Assembly: GCF_037977385.1 (NCBI RefSeq)
Contig: NZ_CP150277.1
Span: 2,147,001 to 2,211,000, forward strand
Length of the DNA: 64,000 nucleotides
Direction of reading: 5' to 3'
DNA from: Terribacillus sp. FSL K6-0262
GTDB taxonomy: Bacteria > Bacillota > Bacilli > Bacillales > Amphibacillaceae
In this document: piece by piece, positions 8,605 through 48,440 of the stretch
Numbering within the stretch: position 1 is the first letter of the stretch
How the letters are laid out: each line of letters starts with the position of its first letter
Program-made: the position numbers and the translations under genes
The notes under the pieces: model-generated
What the model was told of the DNA's origin: nothing
Seen by the model: only the letters and a program-made list of their open reading frames with translations
Databases searched by the model: none

Positions 8605-9318
8605 ATGGATTTTAGATGGGAAATTATTGGAGAGTATTTGCCTTTCTTCATGAGAGGCCTTGGCTACACGATATTGGCATCATTGATTGGATTCCTCATC
8701 GGGGCTGTCATCGGTTTGCTGATCGGAATGGGGAAGAGCCTTTCCAATCCGATTCTTCGCCTGCCGTTCATTTGGTATGTGAATATTTTCAGGGGCACGC
8801 CGCTGCTCGTACAGATTTTCTTGATTCACTTTGCGGTGATGCCTATTTTCATCAAGCCGCCAGAGCCGCTGATATCCTTGATTGTGGCATTGGCATTGAA
8901 TTCTGCTGCTTACATTGCAGAGATTTTCCGTGCCGGTATCAATTCGATAGATAAGGGGCAGCGTGAGGCTGCATACAGTCTCGGAATGAATCACGCACAA
9001 GTGCTGCGGCATGTTGTACTGCCACAGGCATTCAAGCGGATGATTCCGCCGCTGGGCAACGAATTCATCGTCTTGGTGAAGGATTCTTCACTTGGAGCGG
9101 TCATTGCAGCGCCGGAGCTATTTTACTGGGGCAGGGTGGCAGTTGGCGCATATTCCCGGGTCTGGGAGCCATATTTGGCAGTGGCGGTTTTGTATTTTGT
9201 CGTTTGTTTAGTATTATCATATGTACAGGGCTTTTTAGAAAGGAAGTATGCGACAGATGATCAGCGTAAAAAACCTAAAAAAAACCTTCGGCGATCTCGA
9301 GGTGCTGCGGGACATTAA
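8605..9318 (+). CDS. polar amino-acid ABC transporter permease
   Basis: This 237-residue permease is of the HisM/GlnP family: hydrophobic helices, FRGTPLLVQ, and the EAA loop [38 protein letters not shown] 8605 is chosen because GAGGTG lies six bases before it; a GTG nine bases earlier overlaps that site. The last 20 residues are strongly basic and are read through the start of the ATPase gene, giving an unusually long 62-base overlap. Confidence 0.87.
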
Positions 9319-9979
9319 TGTCGAAATCAAGGAAAAGGAAGTAGTCGTGGTCATCGGTCCTTCCGGTTCCGGTAAATCCACTTTCATTCGCTGTCTCAAC
9401 CGCATCGAGGATATTACGGATGGTCACGTCTATATAGAAGGAACGGACATCTCTGATAAAAAAGTGAATATCAATAAGGTACGGACAGACGTAGGCATGG
9501 TATTTCAGCAGTTCAATCTGTTCCCTCATAAAACGGTGCTGGAGAACATCATGCTTTCCCCGATGGTCGTCCGCAAGTGGAAAAGGAAGGACGCGGAAGA
9601 AAAGGCGCTGGCGCTGCTGCGAAAGGTTGGCCTGGAAGATAAGGCAGGTGTTTATCCTGAGTCCCTATCCGGCGGACAAAAGCAGCGGGTTGCCATTGCC
9701 CGTGCCTTGTGCATGGAGCCGAAGGTGATGCTGTTCGATGAACCGACGTCTGCACTTGATCCGGAAATGGTCGGGGAGGTGCTGGAGGTCATGAAACAGC
9801 TCGCCAGGGAAGGGATGACGATGATCGTTGTCACGCACGAAATGGGCTTCGCTCGCGAAGTCGGTGATCGTGTCTTGTTCATGGATGGCGGTTATATCGT
9901 GGAGGAAGCGAAACCGGGGGATATTTTCAACAATCCGAAGGAAGAACGGACGAAGGCTTTCTTGAGTAAAGTATTATGA
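9257..9979 (+). CDS. polar amino-acid ABC transporter ATP-binding protein (GlnQ-like)
   Basis: A 240-residue ATPase with Walker [11 protein letters not shown]-loop in [12 protein letters not shown], signature LSGGQKQR, Walker [16 protein letters not shown] and H-loop VVTHEMGF. Together these are diagnostic of the polar amino-acid subfamily. Start ATG 9257 has AAGGAAG ten bases upstream, inside the end of the permease gene. Glutamine, arginine and cystine importers are hard to separate by sequence alone, so I give no gene name. Confidence 0.9.
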
Positions 9980-9984
9980 CATTT

Positions 9985-10018
9985 ACAGCCAGTGCAAACA
10001 TGCGCTGGCTGTTTTCTT
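9985..10018 (+). terminator. terminator of the amino-acid ABC operon
   Basis: Stem ACAGCCAGTGC / GCGCTGGCTGT (one G-U pair), loop AAACAT, then TTTTCTT. Confidence 0.82.
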
Positions 10019-10028
10019 GTAAAAAGGG

Positions 10029-10045
10029 TGTCATATAATCTTACA
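10029..10045 (+). promoter_or_regulatory. perfect TnrA/GlnR box
   Basis: TGTCATATAATCTTACA matches every fixed position of TGTNANAWWWTNTNACA. Its centre (10037) is about 50 bases before the start expected from the extended -10 at 10072-10080, the geometry of TnrA-activated promoters. Confidence 0.75.
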
Positions 10046-10071
10046 AATTTGCTGTCATCCTATATTCCCTA

Positions 10072-10080
10072 TGCTAAAGT
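10072..10080 (+). promoter_or_regulatory. extended -10 element of the NitT/TauT-type operon
   Basis: TGCTAAAGT: a TGN extension directly before TAAAGT (10075-10080). No good -35 is present, consistent with dependence on an activator at the TnrA box. A start near 10087 is predicted. Confidence 0.5.
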
Positions 10081-10086
10081 AAGGGT

Positions 10087-10241
10087 AAGATTTTCGGGTA
10101 ACTAACGAACTGTAACCAAACATTCGTCATGTTCTCGGTTAATCCCTCTCATTTGCAAGCAGAATGCATTGTTCGGCTTGTCTTACAGCTTGTACAGATG
10201 ATATGTTGCGTGGCATATCCGACTGTGCGGGCTGTTTTTTT
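10087..10241 (+). promoter_or_regulatory. structured leader RNA with attenuator-like terminator
   Basis: Three structures can be drawn. P1 pairs 10096-10102 with 138-141/144-146 and 107-110 with 131-134. P2 is CAAGC-A-GAA (10156-10164) with TTC-G-GCTTG (10172-10180). The third is a terminator of 13 pairs (10185-10197 with 10223-10235) with an internal hairpin GATATG/CATATC and seven T residues (10235-10241). CAAGC of P2 could instead pair with GCTTG at 10188-10192 in the terminator arm, a possible antiterminator. I do not recognise the consensus of TPP, SAM, purine, guanidine or preQ1 riboswitches. From 10242 to 10349 I see only the ribosome site. Confidence 0.55.
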
Positions 10242-10349
10242 GTGCTTTTTGCTGAAATAAGGGAATTTATGCTGGACATGCCAATAATTTGTAATCATTC
10301 AGCACCCTCCTGCGTATGATGGGTCTATAGAAATGACAGGAGTGGCGCC

Positions 10350-11126
10350 ATGTATAAATTAAAAGTCATAGATGCCAGTAAGATATTCAGACGCGACGGT
10401 CAGGAAGTGGTTGCATTGCAGGAGACGACAATGCAAATACCTGCAGGACGTTTTGTCAGTATCATTGGCCCCAGCGGCTGTGGCAAATCGACACTCTTCA
10501 ATATGATTGCCGGGCTTATCAAGCCCACCACTGGAAAGATTCTTTTGGATGGAGAGAATATCGTCGGCAAGAGTGGCTATGTCGGTTATATGCTTCAGAA
10601 GGATCTGCTGCTGCCGTGGAGGACGATCTTGGATAATGTGATTCTTGGCTTGGAAGTAAAGGGTATATCGAAACGGGAGGCGAGGAAAAGGGCGCAGCCA
10701 TTACTTGAAAGGTATGGGTTGCAAGGCTTTGAAAACAATTATCCTCCGGAGTTATCAGGAGGTATGCGTCAGCGGGCCGCATTGCTGCGGACGCTTTTGT
10801 ATGACCAGGACATCATCTTGCTGGATGAACCATTCGGAGCATTGGATGCACAGACTAGGCTGCAGATGCAAGAGTGGCTGCTTCGTATCTGGGAGGATTT
10901 CCAGAAAACGATTCTTTTCATCACACATGATATAGACGAAGCGATTTTCTTATCGGATGACATCTATGTTTTGTCTCAGCGGCCAGGAAAACTGAAGGCA
11001 AAAATCAATGTGGAACTGGAGCGGCCTCGTACAGAGGAAACATTGTTATCGGATAAATTCATATCATTAAAGCAAACATTGCTGGATTTGCTTAGAGAGG
11101 AACCGAAAGAGAATGGCAAAACCTGA
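10350..11126 (+). CDS. NitT/TauT-family ABC transporter ATP-binding protein
   Basis: This 258-residue ATPase is of the SsuB/TauB/NrtD type: Walker [10 protein letters not shown], the typical MLQKDLLLPWRTILDNVILGLE Q-loop region, signature LSGGMRQRAALLRTLL, Walker B IILLDEPFGALDAQTR and H-loop FITHDIDEA. These couple to permeases importing nitrate, sulfonates, cyanate or pyrimidine precursors. Start ATG follows CAGGAGTGGCGCC. It overlaps the permease gene by 14 bases. A TnrA box and structured leader lie upstream, which points to a nitrogen-containing substrate. Confidence 0.9.
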   Translation: MYKLKVIDASKIFRRDGQEVVALQETTMQIPAGRFVSIIGPSGCGKSTLFNMIAGLIKPTTGKILLDGENIVGKSGYVGYMLQKDLLLPWRTILDNVILGLEVKGISKREARKRAQPLLERYGLQGFENNYPPELSGGMRQRAALLRTLLYDQDIILLDEPFGALDAQTRLQMQEWLLRIWEDFQKTILFITHDIDEAIFLSDDIYVLSQRPGKLKAKINVELERPRTEETLLSDKFISLKQTLLDLLREEPKENGKT

Positions 11127-11928
11127 AAAAAAACGCTACATCGAGGATGAGAAAAAACGCCAGCAGCGAATGAAGCGGATAGTGTTTGGAGGTCAGATCG
11201 GTCTCGGTGTGCTCGTGATTATCTTATGGGAGGTCCTGACACGATATGAAGTGATGGATCCATATTATTGGAGCAGTCCGAGTACAATCTATGAAACTGC
11301 CAAGGTTGCTTTCCTGGAAGGCACGCTTTGGAGTGATTTGGTCTATACATCGCTTGCTACTTTGGCTGGATTTGCGTCCGGGACGCTTATCGGTTCACTG
11401 GTCGGGCTGTCTTTTTGGTGGTCCGCTTACTATTCACGAATATCAGAACCATACTTGATTGCTTTCAATGCGATTCCGAAACTGGCGCTTGGTCCGGTCA
11501 TTGTCATTTTGTTTGGCATCGGGTTCTTTTCCAAGGTGATGCTTGCATTCCTGATGACTGTCATCGTCACAGCACTGGCTGCTCATAGCGGCATCAAAGC
11601 AGTCGATAAGGATTTGGAAAAACTGCTGTATTCCTTAGGAGCCAAACGCAGACATGTTTTTACGAAAGTGGTCGTTCCGACAACGATGCCTTGGATTGTA
11701 AGCAGTCTGCGCATCAATATTGCATTGGCGCTTGCGGGAACGATCGTCGGGGAGTTCATCAGCTCCCGTCAAGGAATTGGCAGGATGATCTTATATGCAG
11801 GTCAAATTTTGGATATCGACCTTGTGTGGGTCGGTGTCGTCGTATTGTCGATATTGTCTTTGCTCATGTATGCAGGGACGGTCAGCTTGGAAAAATTATT
11901 GCTTCGAGGTCAAGAGCCAAAACAATAG
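11113..11928 (+). CDS. NitT/TauT-family ABC transporter permease
   Basis: A 271-residue SsuC/TauC-like permease: about six hydrophobic helices, a charged N-terminal tail (KPEKKRYIEDEKKRQQ), AFNAIPKLALGPVIVILFGIG, the EAA loop (YSLGAKRRHVFTKVVVPTTMPWI), and the family ending with GTIVGEFISSRQGIG. It overlaps the ATPase gene and lies 10 bases before the binding-protein gene, so the three form one operon. Confidence 0.9.
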   Translation: MAKPEKKRYIEDEKKRQQRMKRIVFGGQIGLGVLVIILWEVLTRYEVMDPYYWSSPSTIYETAKVAFLEGTLWSDLVYTSLATLAGFASGTLIGSLVGLSFWWSAYYSRISEPYLIAFNAIPKLALGPVIVILFGIGFFSKVMLAFLMTVIVTALAAHSGIKAVDKDLEKLLYSLGAKRRHVFTKVVVPTTMPWIVSSLRINIALALAGTIVGEFISSRQGIGRMILYAGQILDIDLVWVGVVVLSILSLLMYAGTVSLEKLLLRGQEPKQ

Positions 11929-11938
11929 GAGGTGTCCC

Positions 11939-12949
11939 ATGAAAAAAGCACGGTGGTTTGGCGTGTTCTTTTTGGCTGTCCTGCTTGGTATCCTGGCAGG
12001 ATGTGCAGGTGGCGGCAGTGAGAAAGAGGAGCTGAAGAAAATAACCATTGCAGAACCGGTGCATTTGACTGGCTATCTGCCGCTCTATGCAGCTATACAT
12101 GAAGGGTATTTTGAAGAGGAAGGTTTGGATGTGGAAGTGGTCACTGCAACTGGCGGAGCGCATGTAACGACTGTCGTAAGCGGGGATGCCTGGGGGAATA
12201 TCGCCGGTCCGGATTCCAATGCACTCGCCAATATCGACTCGAATGATCCCATTGTATCGGTCGTCAATGTCGTCAATCGGGCCAATGTCTACTTGATGGC
12301 TGGCGGCGATACACCTCCGGCAGGTGCATCGGAGGAAGTATTGGCAGCTTATCTCGAAGGGAAGACAATTGCAGCAGGGCGCTATGGAGGCAGCCCGAAC
12401 TTGCTGACACGTTACTTGATCATGGAGTTGGGGATGGAGCCAGGCAAAGACGTATTCCTTGAAGAGCCTGCCGATGCAAGTGCCGTTGTATCCTTGGTGG
12501 AGAATGGCCAGGCAGATATTGCCAATGGAGCCGAACCGCAAATATACGATGGCATTGAAAAGGGAGTCTGGAATGAACCGTTCTATGGATTTCCTAGTTT
12601 GGGAGATTACCCATACAGCGTCATCAGTGTAAAGCAATCCACGATTGAAGAGGATCCTGAAACAGTCCAGAAGTTTGTAAGAGCTATCACGAAAGCTTTA
12701 AAAGCGGTAGATGAGGATAAGGAAATGGCTATGGAGGTTTTGAAAAAGGAGTTCCCGACAACAGAGGAAGCGAGTCTGCAAGCATCACTGGACCGGGCTT
12801 ATGCTGATGAACTTTGGAGCAAGGATGGCTATATCACAAAGGAAGCAACGGATAAAACGATGGATGTAGTGACGAAGACCGGTGTATACAAAGGAGATTA
12901 TAAATACGAAGAGCTAGTCAATATGGAGTTCGTCGAGGCATTGGAATAG
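11939..12949 (+). CDS. NitT/TauT-family ABC transporter substrate-binding lipoprotein (NMT1-like)
   Basis: A 336-residue lipoprotein with lipobox L-A-G-C (Cys22). The mature part has the NMT1/SsuA fold signature: YLPLYAAIHEGYFEEEGLDVEVV, then GGAHVTTVVSGDAWGNIAGPDSNALA, and a later ADIANGAEPQ. Family members bind pyrimidine precursors, sulfonates, nitrate or riboflavin-like ligands; the ligand cannot be read. ATG 11939 has ATAGGAGG upstream. The gene order ATPase-permease-binding protein and the TnrA box suggest a nitrogen source. Confidence 0.88.
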   Translation: MKKARWFGVFFLAVLLGILAGCAGGGSEKEELKKITIAEPVHLTGYLPLYAAIHEGYFEEEGLDVEVVTATGGAHVTTVVSGDAWGNIAGPDSNALANIDSNDPIVSVVNVVNRANVYLMAGGDTPPAGASEEVLAAYLEGKTIAAGRYGGSPNLLTRYLIMELGMEPGKDVFLEEPADASAVVSLVENGQADIANGAEPQIYDGIEKGVWNEPFYGFPSLGDYPYSVISVKQSTIEEDPETVQKFVRAITKALKAVDEDKEMAMEVLKKEFPTTEEASLQASLDRAYADELWSKDGYITKEATDKTMDVVTKTGVYKGDYKYEELVNMEFVEALE

Positions 12950-48321: not shown

Positions 48322-48440
48322 GAAGTCTTATAACGAGTGGCGGAGGGAAAGGCCCGATGAAGCCCGGCAACCCACTGCAGGAGGGCAGTCCTGCAGGAAG
48401 GTGCTACGACCTGCAGCAAAAGCTGCGTGATAAGATGACG
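48322..48440 (+). promoter_or_regulatory. SAM-I (S-box) riboswitch aptamer
   Basis: S-box blocks in order: CTTAT-AACGAGTGGCGGAGGG, CCCGATGAAGCCCGGCAACC, a stem CTGCAGG/CCTGCAG, AAGGTGCTACGACCTGCAG, and closing GATAAGATGAC pairing with the 5' GTCTTAT. It controls the sulfonate/sulfone-type monooxygenase gene downstream. Confidence 0.93.

Follow-up and report, generated by a model that had tools for sequence, protein, structure and literature searches.

A conserved leader before an NMT1-type importer operon in Terribacillus as a candidate genus-restricted transcription attenuator outside the known classes

In the genome of Terribacillus sp. FSL K6-0262, an operon for a putative importer is preceded by a leader of roughly 260 bases that contains its own terminator. 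Does this leader decide whether the polymerase reaches the importer genes, and if so, what kind of element is it? We addressed this question in a stretch of 64,000 nucleotides (contig NZ_CP150277.1, positions 2,147,001 to 2,211,000), which we call the window and whose numbering is used here. Upstream of the leader lies an amino-acid importer of the glutamine/cystine type (ATPase 9248-9979). The original prediction had described two stem-loops and a 13-pair terminator with an internal hairpin and a T7 run, all of which we found on the sequence as described. The positions given there for CAAGC (10156-10160) and for the two copies of GCTTG (10176-10180 and 10188-10192) are exact. This structural observation is right, and the conservation of the leader is stronger than was claimed at the time. 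In our best reading, the leader is a candidate transcription attenuator, or orphan riboswitch, that is restricted to the genus and falls outside any known class. We put a probability of about 0.6 on the leader attenuating transcription of the importer operon in cis, in Terribacillus alone as judged from the genomes sampled. The features are listed in Table 1.

Table 1. Coordinates of the leader elements and of the importer genes in the window.
Feature	Position	Strand	Remarks
Putative sigma-A promoter	10052..10080	+	CTGTCA-17-TGCTAAAGT (extended -10); predicted start ~10087; consensus only
P1	10089..10144	+	Long hairpin with internal loops; basal GAUU/AAUC, UCGGG/CUCGG, AAC/GUU
Unpaired C/U-rich stretch	10145..10154	+	CCTCTCATTT, invariant; partly paired in the antiterminator
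P2	10155..10181	+	GCAAGC/GCUUGU and inner GAAU/GUUC; competitor of the antiterminator
Alternative antiterminator	10149..10201	+	UCAU 10149-10152 with AUGA 10198-10201; UGCAAGC 10154-10160 with GCUUGUA 10188-10194
Intrinsic terminator	10185..10241	+	13-pair stem, 10185-10197 with 10223-10235, with U.G wobbles; encloses an 8-pair inner hairpin; apical hairpin 10200-10219; U tract (T's) to 10241
Remainder of the 5' region	10242..10349	+	Conserved in part; AGGAG as ribosome-binding site; promoter scores not above chance
Importer ATPase	10350..11126	+	Nitrate/sulfonate/taurine type, below curated cut-offs
Importer permease	11113..11928	+	BPD_transp_1
Substrate-binding lipoprotein	11939..12949	+	NMT1-like

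Using computed folds, we found that the RNA through the terminator is more stable than its dinucleotide shuffles in three genomes (z -4.1 to -4.8), as is the 5' part without the terminator (z -2.5 to -2.7). The outer six pairs of P2 form with a probability of 0.85-1.0. A simple consensus terminator scan listed only the terminator of the neighbouring amino-acid importer (9985-10012); the leader terminator is missing from that list because the scan accepts loops of 3-8 bases. Six bases at the apex of P1 are present in the nine relatives and missing from the window's genome (10118-10119); this part of the loop therefore seems to be dispensable.

The original prediction had regarded the leader as unrecognised and had proposed a search against Rfam, and this search matched no known class. 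None of the riboswitch and leader families of Rfam release 15 reached its gathering threshold at the leader, and a T-box was found there neither at gathering nor at E values up to 10. A cmscan of 9960-10420 with E up to 10 returned mir-21 alone (E 4.6, 13.3 bits compared to a gathering threshold of 52). The HMP-PP (thiS) riboswitch gave no match in the search of 4227 Rfam families at E up to 10, a set that may include thiS. In the whole window, cmscan reported just two SAM riboswitches, at 1374-1481 (79.9 bits) and 48325-48436 (67.5 bits).

The conservation of the leader is far beyond chance. A DNA search of 61 genomes detected it in all ten Terribacillus genomes, each time in front of the same importer, and in none of the 51 others. 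Across these ten genomes 132 of the 153 positions of 10089-10241 are invariant, compared to 16 of 79 four-fold degenerate sites in the adjacent ATPase gene (Fisher p 1.6e-23, a value that ignores relatedness and linkage). One invariant run covers 40 positions (10123-10162). The unpaired stretch does not vary at any of its ten positions and P2 only at one of 27, while P1 is invariant at 45 of 56, with 10 of the 11 changes located in its upper part. Terminator loops normally drift freely; here, 18 of the 20 positions of the apical hairpin are invariant. In the terminator of the amino-acid importer, about 200 bases upstream, 4 of 28 positions are invariant, partly because four genomes are gapped there.

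To look further afield, we built a covariance model (R1) on 10089-10184 and applied it to 159 genomes of the family (46 genera, E up to 1), 397 of the order (135 genera, E up to 0.1) and 378 of the class (141 genera, E up to 0.01). These samples overlap, and the stricter filters used lose weak matches. The model found one strong copy per Terribacillus genome, in all ten of the family search, in four of the order sample and in two of the class sample, and no copy outside Terribacillus in the sampled genomes. Five weak matches were rejected. One lies in sense orientation inside a coding gene (L101; gene names by eye), one is antisense to a coding gene (L103), one is antisense inside a peptide-synthetase-like gene (L197, by eye) and one is a mere terminator-like hairpin between genes (L119). 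The fifth (L102, G164:C7:252031-252137) is antisense to a lipoprotein-like gene and was judged to be due to chance, despite its likeness at many conserved positions.

Alignment and covariation had also been suggested as a check, and the two parts of it came out differently. The leader is strongly conserved in the ten Terribacillus genomes, but a two-sided change occurs in just one of 54 pairs, in one genome, and a score as high as the observed one is seen in 41 of 500 shuffles. In the alignment 98.7% of the cells are paired, compared to 98.3% in shuffles. In most cases a changed pair is retained as a wobble. Breaks affect three pairs, of which two are in P1 (in one and in three genomes, respectively) and the third is pair 2 of the terminator (in three genomes). 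Covariation is uninformative for the leader because almost nothing varies.

The best sigma-A-like site upstream of the leader, CTGTYA-17-TGnTAAAGT, is found at the same place in all ten genomes (-37 from P1), with TG and TAAAGT invariant. Base shuffles match its score at a frequency of 0.04-0.06 where the first hexamer reads CTGTCA (four genomes) and of 0.24-0.29 where it reads CTGTTA (six genomes); the scoring goes by the sigma-A consensus only. Past the terminator, no sigma-A-like site beats shuffles (0.42-0.69). A stricter promoter scan did not list the site before P1 and reported a single site, 10333-10360, where 1.3 are expected by chance. Overall, the placement of the promoter-like site tends to favour read-through into the importer over a stand-alone small RNA. 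Between the terminator and the ribosome-binding site 65 of 89 positions are invariant, including TATGAT at 10315-10320, which as a sequence might possibly serve as a promoter. In the same region, before the ATG, TGCTGGACATGC (10270-10281) is invariant in the ten genomes and AATTTGTMATCATT (10286-10299) has one variable position; neither block matched an assignable operator or promoter.

It had been claimed that CAAGC can pair either within P2 or with the terminator arm. This alternative pairing is present and even longer than proposed, with 11 of 11 pairs forming in each of the ten genomes and no two-sided changes. Taken by itself, the duplication of GCTTG exceeds chance only weakly, since an equally good upstream partner for the terminator arm appears in 168 of 2000 shuffles. 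Before the 3' arm of the terminator is made, P2 and the antiterminator lie within 1.4 kcal/mol of each other in all ten nascent RNAs, with P2 ahead by 1.3 kcal/mol in seven genomes and the antiterminator by 1.4 in three. Once the 3' arm is made, the terminator is ahead by 13-20 kcal/mol, and the probability of the antiterminator in the full-length window RNA is 0.0. Switching would therefore have to be kinetic. In the middle of the terminator stem, U.G wobbles persist on the 5' arm and the sole change affects the 3' arm, consistent with a constraint on the 5' arm to pair with GCAAGC as well.

From these parts, their conservation, the placement of the promoter-like site and the near-equal computed energies, we infer that switching occurs, as well as its direction and its signal, in the following way. 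Transcription would start at about 10087, straight at P1. P1, the unpaired CCTCTCATTT and P2 would act together as the sensor of a small ligand, as in an orphan riboswitch, or of a protein. When the polymerase passes 10200, the GCAAGC strand would be held either in P2 or, as the antiterminator, on the 5' arm of the terminator. A stable P2 would allow the terminator to form and keep the importer off, whereas an antiterminator that persists until the polymerase has cleared the 3' arm would let the importer be read. Such a mechanism is plausible and has partial support from the promoter placement and the energies. The attenuator logic of the original prediction thus keeps its components, namely a promoter-like site, P2 in competition with the antiterminator, a terminator and the lack of a clear second promoter, but the switching itself is deduced from them. 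A more specific version, which we offer as a tentative possibility, is a riboswitch class confined to one genus. Its sensor would span the 5' domain and the conserved hairpin of the terminator, so that the terminator would be part of the binding site, and it would sense the substrate of the NMT1-type importer.

The importer itself gives few hints towards this substrate. By sequence, the nearest solved structures to the binding protein are 4nmy (1.3e-8), 3qsl (3.7e-8), NrtA (1.9e-5) and the ThiY-type protein 3ix1 (4e-5). No substrate can be named, because the solved NMT1-like proteins are too distant. The earlier proposal of a nitrogen compound as the signal found no support, the binding protein being broadly NMT1/SsuA-like at most; a nitrogen compound as substrate or signal is possible. 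Orthologous importers with a binding protein of 66-71% identity were found at six loci in Gracilibacillus, Aquibacillus, Sporolactobacillus and Alkalicoccobacillus. The operon extends in Gracilibacillus (L017) and Aquibacillus (L018), where an isochorismatase-family hydrolase and an MFS transporter are encoded (domains scanned in L017). The Terribacillus leader is absent from all six loci, and a terminator with a competing hairpin also precedes four of these importers and two further ones.

At these four (L017:3164-3211, L018:3131-3179, L019:3057-3105 and L022:3169-3215) we found a hairpin of about 45 nt, GAC-U-GGU...ACC-GUC, with a conserved internal loop. Its ACCGUC strand is used again by the terminator that directly follows. 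In the remaining two (L020, L021), a pattern search for the hairpin gave no match. Using the models R2 and R3, the element was kept at 22 loci, including L122:1502-1550, L123:1502-1545, L160:1501-1546 and 15 further ones. Six of them precede an NMT1-type importer and 16 precede DUF34/NIF3-like genes; the domain scan for NIF3 covers L123, and the other genes are named by resemblance. In L123, the gene after that of the DUF34/NIF3-like protein (1624-2646) encodes, by eye, a nucleoside-recognition-type membrane protein, and DUF34/NIF3-like genes are likewise located 3' of the element in L160-L169. By a strict test, the terminator reuses the hairpin strand in 20 of the 22 loci. A DUF2294/MpsC-like gene is located directly upstream, also in 20 of 22, with the element at the end of the gene (Bacilli), and the two genomes without an adjacent one have a homologue elsewhere (E 4e-27 and 9e-28). 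The scores of the two scanned DUF2294-like proteins against Pfam MpsC (21.0 and 17.3 bits) do not reach its cut-off of 23, and the DUF2294-like profile had no significant match to PDB by sequence (best E 0.27).

The 22 loci were selected as follows. With E values of up to 1, the order sample contained 65 matching genomes; 30 loci were read and ten were kept (L120-L127, L130, L133), of which L120 and L121 are counted as L017 and L019, where the same elements occur. L128, L129, L131, L132 and L134-L149 were dropped by eye, as they had no matching terminator or were inside genes. From the class sample we kept the best 10 of 19 genomes at E up to 0.01 (L160-L169), and dropped L170-L178 as coding or without terminator. 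The count leaves out a second, weaker match in G079 (L185). In the alignment of the 22 loci (21 distinct), which was fitted to the model and in which 16 of 21 rows lack one of the assumed pairs, two-sided changes occur in 5 of 13 pairs and the covariation of 0.219, compared to 0.128 +/- 0.016, was reached by none of 500 shuffles. The number of pair types is not above shuffles (167/500). A MAFFT alignment of 11 sequences (10 distinct), on which the structure was drawn, gave 4 of 13 pairs and 0.205 compared to 0.119 +/- 0.019 (1/500 shuffles). The element was found in none of the ten Terribacillus genomes at E <= 0.1 (model R3). Rfam had no match for it at gathering in L017, L018, L019, L022, L122-L127, L130 or L133, and L018 searched with E up to 10 gave nothing beyond noise from animal miRNA, Y RNA and snoRNA. 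L019 carries a SAM riboswitch elsewhere (Rfam hit). Among the titles listed in PMC, nothing relevant was found on DUF2294, on MpsC antitermination, on riboswitch candidates with isochorismatase or NIF3 in Bacillus, or on riboswitches in Terribacillus, and a term search of PMC11109978 gave no relevant passage. The position of the element beside DUF2294/MpsC-like genes suggests that the small DUF2294-like proteins could be RNA-binding antiterminators.

How do other explanations of the Terribacillus leader compare? It could be a stand-alone small RNA gene (about 155 nt) that has both a promoter and a terminator of its own, in which CCTCTC is a C/U-rich seed for the ribosome-binding sites of other mRNAs, while the importer has a promoter further downstream. 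The thermodynamic dominance of the terminator would agree with this, as would the invariance of the unpaired CCTCTCATTT in all ten genomes and the conservation that continues past the terminator and includes TATGAT. However, the downstream promoter that it needs does not stand out from shuffles, P2 and the antiterminator are almost isoenergetic, and the single strong copy per genome always stands before the importer. Several orthologous importers are likewise located behind conditional-looking terminators, and taken together we consider a small RNA unlikely.

Control by a protein would use the same anatomy, with an RNA-binding protein instead of a ligand stabilising or breaking P2, and a possible source of such a protein is the DUF2294/MpsC-like gene that often lies next to the importer leader in other genera. 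The Terribacillus leader, however, has no adjoining regulator gene. Pfam MpsC occurs in nine of the ten Terribacillus genomes and the DUF2294-like profile in five, but neither is present in the window's genome, so that an MpsC/DUF2294-like protein (PF10057 or the DUF2294-like profile) is not required for the leader and is ruled out as its obligatory partner. A protein-controlled attenuator in general seems to us quite unlikely, slightly more so than the small RNA. We rejected attenuation by a leader peptide, where a stalled ribosome would determine the fold, as highly improbable. Two plus-strand frames (MFSVNP... and MHCSAC...) start alike in eight of ten genomes, but their lengths vary (19-52 and 30-51 codons) with indels in T runs, and none of the plus-strand frames of at least 15 codons has a ribosome-binding motif; no translated plus-strand frame with a conserved ribosome-binding site was found. 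A minus-strand frame of 18-21 codons (MTN.../MTK...) does have a GAGG-type motif upstream in all ten genomes, but diverges past the first codons between two species groups, and a regulatory codon run was not seen by eye. An ordinary terminator with incidental hairpins would be in line with the whole 263-nt span of the original prediction, which folds slightly better than shuffles (z -1.67; 12 of 200 equally good), but it is contradicted by the conservation of the whole leader, including unpaired bases and the terminator loop, and is just as improbable as the leader peptide.

A transcription attenuator in front of the importer, if operated by a ligand, would give a direct biochemical handle on the NMT1-type importer, and would show how young and narrow a class of regulatory RNA can be. 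The DUF2294-linked element is much wider in the Bacilli and may be the more general discovery of the two; it would give a testable function to relatives of the family that Pfam names MpsC.

Among known systems, ribonucleic antiterminators of the RAT/LicT type form a hairpin that excludes the terminator, as we propose for the leader, whereas no antiterminator gene of this type was noticed near it. The DUF2294-linked element resembles the leader in preceding the orthologous importers and in a hairpin strand that overlaps the 5' arm of the terminator, but with about 45 nt it has another sequence and another fold. The NMT1 motif, a xanthine riboswitch, has merely the name NMT1 in common with the domain of the binding protein. 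As characterised in PMC7373994, it is a two-stem junction from Proteobacteria with almost no terminators, and Rfam did not match it at the leader. Another parallel in anatomy is the HMP-PP (thiS) riboswitch. As described by Atilho et al. (PMC6478431), thiS is embedded in the terminator and associated with thiamin genes, whereas the Terribacillus leader has a separate 5' domain of about 95 nt before its terminator. According to the same paper, an abnormally conserved terminator loop and a mutually exclusive alternative fold were clues to its discovery, and G-U wobbles are mentioned in its terminator stem; the Terribacillus leader shares the conserved loop of the terminator hairpin and the wobbles, and has a predicted mutually exclusive fold.
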